Below, in pieces: positions 31,799 to 57,356 of a stretch of 64,000 bases of DNA (position 1 is its first letter; the number at the start of each line of letters is the position of its first letter). The DNA comes from Desulfoscipio sp. XC116 (GTDB lineage Bacteria; Bacillota; Desulfotomaculia; Desulfotomaculales; Desulfallaceae): positions 1,426,001-1,490,000 of the forward strand of contig NZ_CP156660.1 in the NCBI RefSeq assembly GCF_039851975.1, given 5' to 3'. The notes under the pieces were generated by a model. The model was not told the DNA's origin, searched no databases, and saw only the letters and a list, made by a program, of their open reading frames with translations. The position numbers and the translations under genes were made by a program.

Positions 31799-31910
31799 GT
31801 GAACTCGTTCAGCTAAAGCTGAACAGCGGGGCTTTAGATGGGGATTCTACCCGACCCGGAGTAAGGATAGGAACTTCCACTTATAGAAATGGGAGTCTTG
31901 AAATTTGATA
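31799..31910 (-). repeat. Three-hairpin repeat element, copy A (minus orientation)
   Basis: Read on the minus strand it has, in order: CAAATTTCAAG, an ACTCCCA-type hairpin (31873-31896), a middle CTCCGGG/CATCTAAAG stem that is partly broken, and the perfect GTTCAGC-TTTA-GCTGAAC hairpin (31807-31824), ending GAGTTCAC. It matches copies at 36571-36680 and 57257-57356. It lies just after the pnp terminator. Confidence 0.85.
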
Positions 31911-31990
31911 AATTGGACTGGAACGGCCAACTGGTAAGTATGCTGAGTTTGAACGCAACAGCTCATTGTTGCGAAGTAGGAGGTTTCATT

Positions 31991-32665
31991 ATGTCTTTGG
32001 AGTTGTTTGGATATAAGAGTGTACAGGAGAAAATCAGCCGGGAAAAACAGTGGATGGAAAATAATTTTGCCGACTGTCCGGTCAAGTATGATCCGGAGGC
32101 GGCCTGGCGTGACAATGCTGTTATATGCCGCCTTTCAATATTAAAGCCTTATTGTTTAGCTTTTGGTATCTACCAAATTTTAAACAAAGAATTTAATGAT
32201 GCTCTGGCTGCAGAAATAAATAATTTAAACTTTAGTCCCGTGCTGGAAGTAGGGGCGGGTAATGGGGAGCTGGCCAATGTATTGCACAACCGGGGAGTGA
32301 GCCTGACTGCGGTTGATAATTATTCGGAGTCACTGCCCAAGGGTCCTTGGCTATATGGATTAATGCCGGTGCATATGAGCTGCCTTGATGCGCTTAAAAA
32401 ATACAGTCCGCGCCTCGTTATATGCAGCTGGATGCCTGGAGGTTGCGATTGGACCCCTGCTTTTAGGAGCGCCGGATCGGTGGATGCTTATATATTAATA
32501 GGTGAGGAAGACAAAAATATTTGGGGGGATTATCCCGGTTGGCGCAGTCGGGTACTCAAAGGGCCCAATAAATGGTCACTGTGCAGGCTGGATAACGGCG
32601 TTGATTTTGATAAGCCGGAACTTTGGTGGAGACATTCCAAGGTTGTACTTTTTGAACGTGTTTAA
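31991..32665 (+). CDS. Probable SAM-dependent methyltransferase-like protein
   Basis: Residues ~75-105 hold LEVGAGNGELANVLHNRG followed by LTAVDNY, the GxGxG loop and acidic residue of a class I methyltransferase SAM site; the rest is not recognised. Family and substrate are unknown. 224 residues. TAGGAGG (31977-31983) sets the ATG at 31991. A hairpin CGCAACA/TGTTGCG (31954-31960 with 31967-31973) sits directly before that site. A longer frame beginning in the repeat element is rejected. It has its own terminator and is an addition relative to B. subtilis between pnp and ylxY. Confidence 0.7.
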   Translation: MSLELFGYKSVQEKISREKQWMENNFADCPVKYDPEAAWRDNAVICRLSILKPYCLAFGIYQILNKEFNDALAAEINNLNFSPVLEVGAGNGELANVLHNRGVSLTAVDNYSESLPKGPWLYGLMPVHMSCLDALKKYSPRLVICSWMPGGCDWTPAFRSAGSVDAYILIGEEDKNIWGDYPGWRSRVLKGPNKWSLCRLDNGVDFDKPELWWRHSKVVLFERV

Positions 32666-32673
32666 AGAATGCT

Positions 32674-32704
32674 AACCTGCCCATGGGGGTGGGTTATTTA
32701 TTTT
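32674..32704 (+). terminator. Rho-independent terminator after the methyltransferase gene
   Basis: AACCTGCCC (32674-32682) pairs with GGGTGGGTT-type sequence (32686-32695) over nine positions allowing G-U, with a 3-nt loop, then ATTTATTTT. Confidence 0.75.
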
Positions 32705-32781
32705 AAACAGCATTTTCAAGTGATTCTGTGCATAAGTATTTATGAAAAAAGTTCAGACGGGGGGGAAGGATATTTGTTTTC

Positions 32782-33483
32782 ATTAATCGTCGGCAGGTAA
32801 TTGAAATCTTTTTATTAATCTGTATACTATCTGCAATTATATGGATGGTTTGTTCTCGTGAGCAGGCAACCACTGCCGCTGCAATTGAGCCCCTTTACCA
32901 GGGTGATGAAAATGTTAAGGCTATGGCATTGACATGTAATGTTTTCTGGGGCGAGGAATACATGGGGCGTATGCTGGAAGTCTTAGAGGAAAAAAATGTG
33001 CATATGACATTTTTTATTGGTGGCACCTGGGCGGAAAAATTCCCCGAACTGATGAAGAAAATATATGAACAAGGCCATGAAATCGGTAGCCACGGCTATT
33101 CCCATCCACATCCCGACAATCTATCAAAGCAGGAAAACTCGCTGGATATAACTAAAGCTGAAAAGATTATCTATGATATTACCGGTGAAAAACCTCGGCT
33201 TTATGCTCCTCCCTATGGGGAAAGAGGGCCGGCGGTATTGGAGGCCGCTCAGGAGTTGGGCTATCGTACCGTGCTGTGGAGTATTGACACAGTGGATTGG
33301 CAGCGTCCGGCTCCGGAAGTTATCAGTAAACGTGTCTTTAATAAAATGGAAAACGGTGCTATTGTATTAATGCATCCAACCGCGCCTACAATACACGCAC
33401 TGCCATCTATAATTGACGGTTTAGAGGAAGAAGGCTTTCAATTAATTACTGTTGGAAAGATGTTGGAGCAGAAGCGGGAATGA
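32782..33483 (+). CDS. ylxY: YlxY-type polysaccharide deacetylase homologue with N-terminal membrane anchor
   Basis: NodB-fold protein. HSHGYSHPHPD-like metal histidines are present as SHGYSHPHPD, and APPYGERGPA and LMHPTAPT match the later motifs. The canonical TFDDG is replaced by ALTCNVFWGEEY, as I recall for B. subtilis YlxY, so deacetylase activity is doubtful. The first ATG (32845) has no ribosome binding site. The same frame is open upstream and encodes a hydrophobic anchor (VIEIFLLICILSAIIWMV) preceded by basic residues. The only possible starts there are non-standard, such as ATT 32782 after GGGGGGAAGGA; that start is tentative. It sits in the ylxY position downstream of pnp. Confidence 0.75.
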   Translation: MNRRQVIEIFLLICILSAIIWMVCSREQATTAAAIEPLYQGDENVKAMALTCNVFWGEEYMGRMLEVLEEKNVHMTFFIGGTWAEKFPELMKKIYEQGHEIGSHGYSHPHPDNLSKQENSLDITKAEKIIYDITGEKPRLYAPPYGERGPAVLEAAQELGYRTVLWSIDTVDWQRPAPEVISKRVFNKMENGAIVLMHPTAPTIHALPSIIDGLEEEGFQLITVGKMLEQKRE

Positions 33484-33553
33484 TAGCGGCGGCTGGCTGA
33501 GGGATAAAAATTAAACATCATGGGAAAGCCTAAGACAAAGAGAGGTGTTCCCA

Positions 33554-34696
33554 TTGCGTCTGATTAAATTCACTGCACCTTGGACTTTATTTCTTTATCT
33601 CTTAAGTGCTGTTGTATGTATCTCACCCGGTATGGCTAATGAACAACAGCAGCTTCCGCAGGTCAGTGCCCGGTCGGCATTATTGCTGGATGTTAATAAC
33701 GGTCAAATTCTTTACGAAAAAGGTCATAGGGAGCCAAGGCCAATTGCCAGTACGACTAAAATAATGACGGCGGTGGTAGCTCTCGGTGGAGCGGATATAA
33801 ATAATACTGTAGCGGTTAGCCCCCGGGCCGCAGCGGTTGGAGAATCTTCAATGTATCTTGAAGCGGGGGAAACACTTACCTTGGAACAACTGCTGTACGG
33901 CGCTCTGCTATGTTCCGGCAATGATGCCTGTGTGGCCGTTGCCGAACACGTGGCCGGCACGGAGGATTTCTTTGTGCAGTTGATGAATGAAAAGGCGGTG
34001 CTGCTGGGTGCCGAAGCGACCAGTTTTCGTAATACCAATGGTTTACCGGCTAACGGCCATTATTCCACCGCTCTTGATCTGGCATTGCTGGCACGTTATG
34101 CCTTGCATGACCCGGCGTTTTGCCGGATCGTTAAAACCCGTGCCCGGATAATCGAAGGGCCGGGTGGTATTAATCATTATTTGCAAAACACTAATAAATT
34201 ACTATGGCAGTACCCCGGGGCTGACGGTGTTAAAACCGGTACCACCGTGGCGGCGGGTAAGTGTCTGGTCGCCTCTGCCACCAGGGGGCATAGACACTTA
34301 TTGGCAGTGGTTTTAAATGGGAGTAACCGGTTTGCAGATGCCGGCCAAATGCTGGACTACGGCTTCAATAAGTTTGAAGATATACAAACCGTTTATGCCG
34401 GTGCCGTGCATGACAGGGTTGGAGTTACAGGCGGGGTTGCTGAAACGGTACCGGTTAAGGCGGTGGATGATATTACGGTTAATTTACGGGTGGACGGGAC
34501 GGACCGGATTGAGAAAAGAGTAAAGCTGGTACGAAGCATTGACGCACCGGTATGTGAGGGGCAGCTATTGGGTGAAATCGGTGTTTTTGTAAACGGCTGC
34601 AAAGTGGGGGACACCGATATTGTGGCGAGCTGTACAATCGATAAAATGTCTTTAATCCAAAACTCAATAAAATTAGTGAAAGATGCTTGTCGTTAA
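33554..34696 (+). CDS. dacF: D-alanyl-D-alanine carboxypeptidase, DacF-type (S11)
   Basis: Trims the terminal D-Ala of peptidoglycan peptides. An N-terminal signal peptide (to about residue 28, ending SPGMA) is followed by the S11 domain with STTK at 66-69, SGN at 121-123 and KTG at 227-229, and a C-terminal PBP5-like beta domain. 380 residues. AGAGGTG (33541-33547) sets the TTG at 33554. The DacF label rests on similarity and sporulation context; DacA or DacB subtypes cannot be excluded. Confidence 0.88.
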   Translation: MRLIKFTAPWTLFLYLLSAVVCISPGMANEQQQLPQVSARSALLLDVNNGQILYEKGHREPRPIASTTKIMTAVVALGGADINNTVAVSPRAAAVGESSMYLEAGETLTLEQLLYGALLCSGNDACVAVAEHVAGTEDFFVQLMNEKAVLLGAEATSFRNTNGLPANGHYSTALDLALLARYALHDPAFCRIVKTRARIIEGPGGINHYLQNTNKLLWQYPGADGVKTGTTVAAGKCLVASATRGHRHLLAVVLNGSNRFADAGQMLDYGFNKFEDIQTVYAGAVHDRVGVTGGVAETVPVKAVDDITVNLRVDGTDRIEKRVKLVRSIDAPVCEGQLLGEIGVFVNGCKVGDTDIVASCTIDKMSLIQNSIKLVKDACR

Positions 34697-34747
34697 AAAA
34701 TAGTTAAGAGAAAAACAAGGAGTTTTATTAAGATAGCAAGAAATTAT

Positions 34748-34780
34748 ACTCGATTATCGATTACTCGATTTTAATATAAT
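34748..34780 (+). promoter_or_regulatory. Possible operator and promoter before the M16 peptidase gene
   Basis: TCGATT occurs three times (34750-34755, 34757-34762, 34765-34770), within the direct repeat ACTCGATT, immediately before TATAAT (34775-34780). No good -35 is seen. The spacing suggests repeated binding sites overlapping a promoter. Confidence 0.4.
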
Positions 34781-34814
34781 GACAGTGGATTTGATTTTAA
34801 CAGGGGGTAACTGC

Positions 34815-36074
34815 GTGATACAGGTAGCCGAACTGGCTAATGGAATTAAAGTACTGACGGAGAATATACCGCATGTGCGTTCGGTAGCTATTGGAGTTTG
34901 GGTGGATATTGGCTCTCGGGATGAAAGTAATGAATTAGCGGGCATATCACATTTTATTGAACATTTAATGTTTAAAGGGACGGAAAAACGTACCGCTAAA
35001 GATATAGCGGAGGCACTGGACGCCGTGGGCGGACAGTTAAACGCCTTTACTACCAAGGAATATACTTGTTACTACGCCAGGGTTTTGGACGAACACTTTC
35101 CGCTGGGTATTGATTTGCTGGGTGACATGCTGCTGAATTCCAGTTTTAATCCGGCTGATATTGAACGGGAACGCAATGTTATTTTAGAAGAGATAAAAAT
35201 GTATGAAGACGCTCCGGATGAACTGGTACATGATGTTTTTGCCGGTACCATTTGGCGGGGCCATCCGCTGGGCAGACCGATCATCGGTGATGAAAAAACC
35301 GTACAGGGACTATCCCGGGAACAAATACTGTCCTTTTATCGCAAGTACTATAGCTCCGGCAATCTAGTGATATCGGTAGCCGGCAACTTTGATCAGCAAA
35401 AGGTTATCAATGCTTTAAATGAAACCTTTGGCAAATTGGCCGGAGCAAAAAAAGAAAAAGGGTATTTTTTACCTGAACCGGCACGCCAGGTAGTCTGCCG
35501 GGTAAAAGATACCGAACAGGTACATATATGTCTTGGCACGCCCGGGCTGGCCTTGGATCATGAAAAGATATATGTTTTTCAAATTGTAAACACTATTTTA
35601 GGCGGAGGTTTAAGTTCCCGGCTTTTCCAGGAAATCAGGGAACAGCGTGGGCTGGTTTACTCCATATTTTCATACCACAGCTCGTATCACGATTCCGGTT
35701 TGTTCTGTATCTATACGGGGTTAAGCAAACAAAACGTACGGGCTGCCTTGGAACTGATTGTCAGGGAAATACGGCGTATCCAGTCAAATGGGGTGACTTT
35801 GGCCGAACTGCAACGGGCCAAGGAACAGCTGAAGGGAAACCTGTTGCTTAGCTTGGAAAATATTAGCACCAGGATGAGCAGGTTGGGTAAATCCCAAATG
35901 TATCTTGGCAAAGTTGTGCCGCCGGATGAAATCGTAAATCGTATTATGGCGGTATCGGACAGTGATATTAAAGATTTGGTCAGGGCAGTGTTAAAGCCGG
36001 AGAATTTCTGTATGGCCAGTGTGGGGCCATGGGATGACGGTGATATGCTGAATAATATCATTAATAATATGTGA
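34815..36074 (+). CDS. ymxG: M16-family zinc protease (YmxG/MlpA type)
   Basis: Insulinase/processing-peptidase family. The inverted zinc motif HFIEH is at about residue 45, with the distal glutamate in ERNVILEEIKMYED; the C-terminal half has the conserved GLVYSIFSY stretch. 419 residues. GGGGGT precedes the GTG at 34815; an earlier in-frame ATG (34779) has no site. B. subtilis has the homologue in the same place (ylxY-mlpA-ymxH), where it is linked to protease regulation. Confidence 0.93.
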   Translation: MIQVAELANGIKVLTENIPHVRSVAIGVWVDIGSRDESNELAGISHFIEHLMFKGTEKRTAKDIAEALDAVGGQLNAFTTKEYTCYYARVLDEHFPLGIDLLGDMLLNSSFNPADIERERNVILEEIKMYEDAPDELVHDVFAGTIWRGHPLGRPIIGDEKTVQGLSREQILSFYRKYYSSGNLVISVAGNFDQQKVINALNETFGKLAGAKKEKGYFLPEPARQVVCRVKDTEQVHICLGTPGLALDHEKIYVFQIVNTILGGGLSSRLFQEIREQRGLVYSIFSYHSSYHDSGLFCIYTGLSKQNVRAALELIVREIRRIQSNGVTLAELQRAKEQLKGNLLLSLENISTRMSRLGKSQMYLGKVVPPDEIVNRIMAVSDSDIKDLVRAVLKPENFCMASVGPWDDGDMLNNIINNM

Positions 36075-36093
36075 ATGCCAAGGATGTGGAAGG

Positions 36094-36543
36094 GTGCAGA
36101 TTAAATTTAAAAAACTAAACCCCGCCATTGGCGTTTCGATGCCCGAGCCGGCTTATGCCACTTCGGGGGCGGCCGGGATTGACTTGCCCGCTTCTTTAAA
36201 AGAACCGCTGGTGGTGGAACCGGGGGAGAAAATACTTGTCCCCACCGGGCTGGCGGTTGATATACCCGCTGGCAACATGGTGGGGCTGGTTTTTGTGCGC
36301 AGTGGGTTGGCGAGCAAACATGGCTTGACCCTCGCCAATGCGGTGGGGGTAATTGACAGTGATTATAAGGGTGAGATAATCTGTGCGATACAAAATAATG
36401 GTAAAGAACCTTATAAGATAAGACCGGGTGATAGGATTGCCCAGATTGTTTTTATGCCTTGCTTTCAGGTGGAGATTGCCTATACTGATGAGTTGACCCC
36501 TTCCGCCAGGGATCGGGGAGGTTTTGGGTCAACGGGCAGGTAA
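36094..36543 (+). CDS. dut: Deoxyuridine 5'-triphosphate nucleotidohydrolase (dUTPase)
   Basis: Hydrolyses dUTP to dUMP and keeps uracil out of DNA. Trimeric-type motifs in order: AGIDLPAS (I), VRSGLASKHGL (II/III region), GVIDSDYKGEI (III), RIAQIVF (IV) and the C-terminal RGGFGSTGR (V). 149 residues. The GTG start follows GGAAGG. An intrinsic terminator follows at once. Confidence 0.97.
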   Translation: MQIKFKKLNPAIGVSMPEPAYATSGAAGIDLPASLKEPLVVEPGEKILVPTGLAVDIPAGNMVGLVFVRSGLASKHGLTLANAVGVIDSDYKGEIICAIQNNGKEPYKIRPGDRIAQIVFMPCFQVEIAYTDELTPSARDRGGFGSTGR

Positions 36544-36568
36544 GACCGTATACCGGTCTTTTTTTATT
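36542..36568 (+). terminator. Rho-independent terminator after dut
   Basis: AAGACCG (36542-36548) pairs with CGGTCTT (36554-36560) around TATAC, followed by a T run that abuts repeat copy B. Confidence 0.9.
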
Positions 36569-36570
36569 TG

Positions 36571-36680
36571 TCAAATTTCAAGACTCCCACTTCTATAAGT
36601 GGGAGTTCCTATTTTTACTTCGGGTGGGGTAGAATTTCCATCTGAAGCCCCGATGTTCAGCTTTAGCTGAACGAGTTCAC
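36571..36680 (+). repeat. Three-hairpin repeat element, copy B
   Basis: TCAAATTTCAAG leads into a perfect ACTCCCACTT-CTAT-AAGTGGGAGT hairpin (36583-36606). A 12-bp stem follows (36618-36629 with 36636-36647, four or five G-U pairs in RNA), then GAAGCCCCGAT and the perfect GTTCAGC-TTTA-GCTGAAC hairpin (36655-36672), ending GAGTTCAC. Outer flanks agree with copy A as far as ATTT(G/A)T on the left and TA on the right. Confidence 0.88.
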
Positions 36681-57208: not shown

Positions 57209-57256
57209 GCTAACAGGTGCAGGATATCATAGCCCGCGTTTTTTATCTGTTTCCTA

Positions 57257-57356
57257 ATACTCCCACTTCTATAAGTGGGAGTTCCACTTTTTACTTCAGG
57301 TGGGGTGGAATCCCCACCTGAAGCCCTGATGTTCGGTTTTAGCTGAACGAGTTCAC
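57257..57356 (+). repeat. Three-hairpin repeat element, copy C
   Basis: Perfect ACTCCCACTT-CTAT-AAGTGGGAGT hairpin (57259-57282), a perfect 12-bp stem CTTCAGGTGGGG/CCCCACCTGAAG (57294-57305 with 57312-57323), GAAGCCCTGAT, then GTTCGGTTTTAGCTGAAC (57331-57348) and the shared end GAGTTCAC. Unlike copies A and B it lacks the leading CAAATTTCAAG. Confidence 0.88.

Follow-up and report, generated by a model that had tools for sequence, protein, structure and literature searches.

A dispersed three-hairpin repeat of Desulfoscipio sp. XC116, probably a bacterial family of non-coding IS200/IS605-type elements

The window analysed here is a stretch of 64,000 nucleotides from Desulfoscipio sp. XC116 (contig NZ_CP156660.1, positions 1,426,001 to 1,490,000, assembly GCF_039851975.1). 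It holds three copies of a three-hairpin repeat, which we take, with good confidence, for copies of a palindrome-associated transposable element (PATE), a non-coding IS200/IS605-type element of about 110 bp moved in trans by the transposase TnpA. Copy A (31799..31907, − strand) lies after the polynucleotide phosphorylase gene, copy B (36572..36680, + strand) after the dUTPase gene, and copy C (57247..57356, + strand) after a gene for an AAA/M41 protease-like protein, ahead of cinA and recA. Their identities to the family consensus are 91%, 96% and 90%, respectively. The initial annotation had located all three copies correctly and misplaced their left ends, which we set at 57247 for copy C (ten bases further out than 57257), at 36572 for copy B and at 31907 on the − strand for copy A. 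Each corrected left end is directly preceded by a target-like pentamer: TTTAT for copy A (31908..31912, −) and copy C (57242..57246, +), and TTTGT, a variant of TTNAT, for copy B (36567..36571, +).

The anatomy of the repeat is best followed in copy B. Hairpin 1 (36583..36606, +) has the same or a very similar counterpart at the ends of TnpB-coding IS605-type elements; hairpin 2 (36618..36647, +) differs between copies and lineages and may be extended or absent elsewhere; hairpin 3, the right-end hairpin (36655..36672, +), is followed by the right terminus GAGTTCAC (36673..36680, +). Copy A likewise starts with C and ends in GAGTTCAC. Reading and folding of the sequence recovered all the claimed hairpins in the three copies. 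Copies B and C each form three clean hairpins (z −4.9 and −7.0 against shuffles), and copy A folds less well (z −2.3) owing to a number of broken pairs. Every difference between the middle stems of copies B and C is a swap between a Watson-Crick and a G-U pair, where the initial annotation had said nearly all, and the two differences in hairpin 3 are the A-U/G-U and C-G/U-G swaps that it had described. In the gene that follows copy A, the longest listed open reading frame begins within the copy (31889-31991); to judge from the sequence, an in-frame ATG at 31991, a few bases behind a GGAGG, is more likely the start.

The three copies belong to a family that goes far beyond what chance would give and whose size greatly exceeds three. 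A covariance model derived from 28 of its copies matched at least 139 places in the genome at E≤0.01, a lower bound as 150 of 1214 candidates were scored, whereas a BLAST search of the genome gave 41 matches (40 of 147 candidates scored). The 21 weakest model matches were dropped and the 118 strongest kept, 117 of which could be read with their flanks (one had no flank). Identity to the consensus ranges from 66% to 98% in these 117 copies, with a median of 87%, and the element measures about 110 bp, with variants of about 65-180 bp counted from hairpin 1. The common layout is TTNAT, then CAAA..., hairpin 1, hairpin 2, GAAGCCCCGAT, hairpin 3 and GAGTTCAC.

Both ends of the element are sharp. 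In profiles of the 109 copies with at least 75% identity to the consensus, the left end reads T, T, N, A, T and then C at a sharp edge of conservation, while the 30 bases upstream of the element are near background. TTNAT stands at the left end of 57 of the 109 copies (TTTAT in 35) and at 0.8% of window positions. At the right end, GAGTTCAC is exact in 40/109 copies and T comes next in 98/109, beyond which the profile again falls near background. Hairpins lie close to both ends, and neither terminal inverted repeats nor duplicated flanks were seen in the aligned copies, their flanks and the empty sites, so that a miniature inverted-repeat transposable element (MITE) of the DDE type was rejected. 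At about 110 bp the element is also too short to code for a transposase. When the 60-base flanks of each copy were joined, 62 of 117 were open in some frame, compared with 2733 of 3000 random 120-base pieces of the window; insertions therefore favour sites between genes.

A comparison of Desulfosporosinus sp. FKB with D. acididurans allowed insertion sites to be seen with and without the element. The filled FKB locus L314, ...GCTTTAT[element]TTCCTGGCGG..., corresponds to the empty D. acididurans locus L408, ...GCTTTAATTTCTGACGG..., and reveals a clean insertion 3′ of TTTA(A/T), with GCTTTAA on the left, a TTTCTG-like flank on the right and neither duplication nor loss of target bases. A second pair, L330 (filled) and L271 (empty), agrees to within a T run. 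Insertion 3′ of a short motif without target duplication is thus supported at two readable sites. Together with the lack of coding capacity, the sharp ends and the target preference, this bears out one of the candidates put forward at the outset, a non-autonomous element.

The ends of the repeat have close parallels in elements that do encode transposition proteins. In related genomes, TnpA/TnpB elements start after TTTAA or T(T/C)TAT and several IS605-type groups end in GGAAGC-hairpin-(G/C)TTCAC; other IS605-type elements of the same genomes have different ends (L221-L223, L226). The sole match of the consensus in a phage collection (E 0.007) is hairpin 1 in the Fusobacterium phage phiKSUM (L472), where an IS605 TnpB gene ends about 75 nt before GAAGCTCCCACTTCTATAAGTGGGAGTAGTTCAC, which consists of hairpin 1 and a TTCAC terminus. 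Four plasmid records matched hairpin 1 at E≤1, two of them with a directly adjoining TnpB frame. A Fusobacterium plasmid (L473) repeats the phiKSUM arrangement behind a TnpB frame with 90% identity over 207 aa, and in a Mycoplasmatota plasmid (L476) hairpin 1 lies ahead of TnpB, in a left end, TTTATCCAAAACTAACAAGAATACTCCCACTTCTATAAG, that starts TTTATC CAAAACTAACAAGAATACTCCCACTTCTATAAGTGG; the right end of this TnpB element is GAAGCTTCTACTTCTATAAGTAGGGGTAGTTCAC, with T next. The other two plasmid records resemble left ends of such elements, with no TnpA or TnpB frame detected in the stretch, and no full element was found in the plasmid, phage and viral collections. The early remark that the repeat recalls the right ends of IS200/IS605 elements therefore proved apt, since hairpin 1, the target and the GAAGC-hairpin-TTCAC end all recur at the ends of TnpB-coding elements.

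A model of how such an element might move can be proposed. A Y1 (HUH) transposase TnpA, acting in trans, would recognise the end hairpins, and the element would be moved as single-stranded DNA: i) TnpA would cut on the left behind the TTTAT-like pentamer and on the right behind TTCAC, and ii) the element would insert 3′ of a new TTTAT-like site without target duplication. The action of TnpA in trans and the single-stranded intermediate are suggested by the anatomy and by reports on ISDra2 (PMC8612924). The observations from which we argue are copy number, sharp ends, target preference, the lack of target duplication at the two readable sites, an end anatomy shared with TnpB-coding elements, pairing kept between lineages and a largely neutral decay within the genome. 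The copies look like slowly decaying relics, not like a conserved RNA gene, and those of this genome would now be immobile.

Several observations weigh against this interpretation. First, the comparison of FKB with D. acididurans gave no clean empty site beyond these: some are divergent (L282, and L272 against L312 in both directions) and others hold shared or different damaged copies (L269, L279, L297). Second, a lagging-strand model predicts a bias of orientation relative to replication, and none was found (26/17 and 39/35, p 0.45, with the GC-skew switch near 1.65 Mb and the start of the contig taken as the origin); dividing the genome at its midpoint had given p 0.04, which was gone at the GC-skew switch. 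Third, no autonomous element with both ends was found among 120 named loci with an exact right end. A tblastn search of these loci with the gathered TnpA/TnpB proteins, which would miss very divergent ones, matched four (L292, L304, L327, L377), all of them with a right end that is part of another, short element; L292 was thus rejected as an autonomous parent, since its IS605 element stops at 1841 and the copy at 2061-2173 stands apart from it. Fourth, the genome has seven Y1 matches, namely two full and one broken IS200-type TnpA genes and four of the RAYT kind, one with a stop; the flanks of the two full TnpA genes are unlike the element, and no TnpA with matching ends was found in the genome. 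Fifth, 16 of 31 carrier genome entries (4/10, 4/12 and 8/9) lack a PF01797 match above 70 bits, which we took as lack of an IS605-type TnpA; among the 31, G060 and G074 look like the same genome, and G006 and G010 hold only partial element matches. One carrier, the Tepidibacillus G064, has no Y1 match at all. Last, paired two-sided changes in hairpin 1 number 34 among the 117 copies, against 15.5 (sd 3.3) in shuffles, with none of 300 shuffles as high. Purely neutral decay from a single master would not yield this excess; 24 of the 34 fall in the 44 copies with less than 85% identity, and we take these, tentatively, for inherited differences of older, mixed subfamilies that have different hairpin 1 sequences.

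What else could move these elements? The near-complete genome G222 (3 contigs) is a carrier with 123 first-look candidates, of which two were scored, and has no intact IS605-type TnpA. It leaves room for a mobiliser other than an IS605-type TnpA, such as a RAYT acting from a distance or some other protein, and for a separate role of the middle hairpin while the element is mobile, perhaps as an RNA scaffold; this hairpin covaries between lineages without being an end. We hold this combination to be unlikely.

Doubtful to a greater degree is a family resembling the repetitive extragenic palindromes (REPs) moved by RAYT (TnpA-REP) proteins, domesticated relatives of the IS605 TnpA. Many carriers do have RAYT-like Y1 genes, among them G028, FKB (G062) and D. 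hippei (G068), all three without an IS605-type TnpA, and the copies are mostly intergenic and numerous, as such an origin would have it. However, the element is absent from all 24 RAYT-like Y1 loci, each covered for about 1.5 kb to either side of the gene (L085 for less), and in seven of the eight read the palindromes next to the gene are of other sequence. Besides G064, the carriers G061 and G065 have no RAYT-size match among those listed, and the element is longer than a REP, with no GTAG directly before the hairpins of its consensus. The RAYT-type genes themselves have company of another kind: L033 and L036 (both of this genome), L092, L101, L405 and L397 carry GGGACGGTTC and GAACCGTCCC on their two sides, and GGTGCCAGGCACC-like palindromes lie on both sides of L086 and L107 and on one side of L034. 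From their sequences, these genes and palindromes would be pairs of RAYT and repeat of the Bacillota.

The initial annotation had read the differences between copies as the mark of a structured RNA. The corresponding alternative is a conserved guide RNA, small RNA or terminator that every copy expresses and that selection maintains. The strong hairpins of copies B and C are what such an RNA would show, and so is the hairpin 1 excess described above. The copies of this genome nevertheless point the other way. In the stems of the 117 copies, pair-keeping C>T changes (opposite G) amount to 144/1809 and pair-breaking G>A changes to 137/1809 (p 0.71), and pair-keeping A>G (opposite U) to 96/1352 compared with 103/1352 for pair-breaking T>C (p 0.66). 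Pairing is thus destroyed as often as it is kept, the very outcome that had been named beforehand as speaking against selection on an RNA, and the exclusively pair-keeping pattern of copies B and C turns out to be atypical of the family in this genome. Among the 73 copies with at least 85% identity there is a weak excess of C>T (95/1158 versus 69/1158 for G>A, p 0.04), with A>G not in excess over T>C, and outside the stems, too, no change is more frequent than C>T. In alignment A2 of 28 copies, pairing does not exceed that of column shuffles (93.5% versus 93.6%), and it is slightly higher than in shuffles when all 117 are taken (87.9% versus 86.8%, 0/300 shuffles as high); paired two-sided changes show no clear excess in hairpin 2 (9 versus 7.1) or hairpin 3 (8 versus 5.1) of the 117. 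Decay within the genome is, therefore, largely neutral.

Other data agree with these counts. No TnpB was found in the genome (PF07282, no match, 19/19 candidates scored), the window has no Rfam match at gathering scores, and eight loci gave none at E≤1, a weak test as the known TnpB elements among them were also unmatched. The guide-RNA, small-RNA and terminator candidates thus found no support, and with the background-like sequence upstream of the copies added to this, an RNA kept by selection appears very improbable.

Between lineages the picture differs. Alignment A3, with 16 copies from several genera (one further row holds gaps only), has 36 cells with two-sided, pair-keeping changes compared with 14.9 (sd 3.3) in shuffles, a control inflated by shared descent. 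Its covariation score is 0.192, against 0.082 in shuffles (0/500) and at most 0.067 with the pairing slid. The two-sided changes fall on three pairs of hairpin 1 and six of hairpin 2; hairpin 3 hardly varies and is partly fixed by the search pattern behind the named loci. The claim of a conserved structure is consequently sound between lineages, where hairpins 1 and 2 covary strongly, and this again is what an expressed RNA would show; it is not borne out for the resting copies of this genome. In our reading, the structure is maintained in lineages that move and disappears from copies at rest. Alternatively, copying from arm to arm within the hairpins could cause stem covariation without any function.

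In many copies the middle hairpin is absent, shortened or extended by further hairpins. Desulfosporosinus (L271, L287, L297, L314, L328 and others) carries a subfamily of 175-180 bp with extra branch hairpins in hairpin 2; it accounts for 15 copies in the 120 named loci, and its median pairwise identity of 95% implies a fairly recent spread. In Desulfotruncus arcticus (G012) and in G042, some copies (L238, L239, L248 and L249) have a hairpin of the GGGGACA...TGTCCCC type, or part of one, within hairpin 2 or in its place, which looks like the insertion of a second repeat into the middle of the element or its replacement by one. In L043, L045, L254 and L255 (G044, G019), hairpins 2 and 3, or hairpin 3 alone, lie within or next to arrays made of a short GTCAGGAGACGGGAG-like repeat. 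In L051 (G006:C1:4798389-4798415), hairpin 1 occurs by itself, enclosed by a longer palindrome of another sequence, ...TTGGCGTAA-hairpin-TACAACGCCAA...; this genome of the same genus has about eleven near-identical matches to hairpin 1, which are probably another family of hairpin elements.

Truncated copies bear on the remaining alternative. In sequence not used to fetch the loci, 23 copies were full, 14 left-only and 9 right-only, after inspection had removed palindrome artefacts, one IS605 end and complete copies from raw counts of 20 left-only and 27 right-only, 25 of the latter being listed. Truncation is thus roughly symmetric, which indicates deletions after insertion and not copying through RNA. 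A SINE-like (short interspersed element-like) retroelement copied through RNA, which the RNA-like folds kept between lineages and the left-truncated copies L332 and L345, seeming to replace roughly 30 and 85 bp of target, had suggested, is hardly credible, since right-truncated copies (14) are no rarer than left-truncated ones (9), deletions between short repeats can account for the truncations, it is the left side that shows a target preference, and no tail was seen.

The family extends well beyond Desulfoscipio. Carriers make up 16 of 60 relatives at E≤0.001 and 11 of 299 genomes sampled from the phylum at E≤1e-9, the own genome included in both counts; the latter belong to nine families, and first-look candidate counts in this sample reached 303, with at most two per genome scored. 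The matches listed include Desulfosporosinus species, Acididesulfobacillus acetoxydans, Desulfotruncus arcticus, Tepidibacillus decaturensis, Paenibacillus mesophilus and a Dethiobacter metagenome-assembled genome (MAG). Identical flanks identify G012 as D. arcticus and G028 as the MAG DeMMO5_3. In D. arcticus three copies are identical to the consensus, and the family has therefore probably been active there recently.

What seemed to be an RNA family thus becomes a good case of mobile DNA, its structure kept between moving lineages and largely lost in resting copies. It also holds a warning for RNA discovery from few copies: two that differed only by G-U swaps looked convincing, and 117 did not. 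Moreover, it adds a PATE family that exceeds 100 copies in one genome and has relatives in sulfate reducers as well as in other Bacillota, and it brings up a question asked before about Haloquadratum, namely how elements of this sort can spread when an intact TnpA is not to be found.

How does this family compare with known systems? PATEs are a known kind of element, and this family is new as far as our comparison with literature and databases went; a narrow search on Desulfotomaculum or Desulfosporosinus repeats and MITEs gave no description of it among the titles and abstract openings listed, which for Desulfosporosinus were 10 of 854. With TnpB-coding IS200/IS605 elements (L218-L236, L472, L473, L476) it shares TTTAT or TTTAA at the left, with some of them a hairpin of the CTCCC-CTTCTATAAG-GGGAG type, and with several groups the right end GAAGC-hairpin-TTCAC. 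Those elements, however, carry tnpA and/or tnpB, and their right hairpin directly follows GAAGC, whereas here CCCCGAT intervenes and the hairpin is different (GTTCAGC). REP/RAYT systems (PMC8266576) resemble it in an HUH-related model of mobilisation and in mostly intergenic palindromes of high copy number, but REPs measure 20-50 nt and are most often preceded by GTAG, and near the RAYT genes read here lie other palindromes but not the element. ISDra2 inserts 3′ of the pentamer TTGAT without duplication, as our element does 3′ of its own pentamer, and an RNA is made from its right end (PMC8612924); unlike ISDra2 with its TnpB right-end RNA (reRNA), the present genome has no TnpB match and its copies are largely decaying. 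One PATE-like element has been described in Halanaerobium (PMC7290912). The closest likeness is with the PATEs of Haloquadratum walsbyi, which show strain-specific insertions although the IS200-type genes are nearly all broken (PMC3119063). Both families lack terminal inverted repeats and target duplication, are too short to code, have near-terminal palindromes related to IS605-type transposons, high copy number and internal deletions, and show strain-specific insertions although intact IS200-type TnpA genes are scarce. The H. walsbyi elements differ in that descent from a particular IS605 element is not established for ours, which is bacterial and shares a three-hairpin body of about 110 bp, with branched variants of 165-180 bp.

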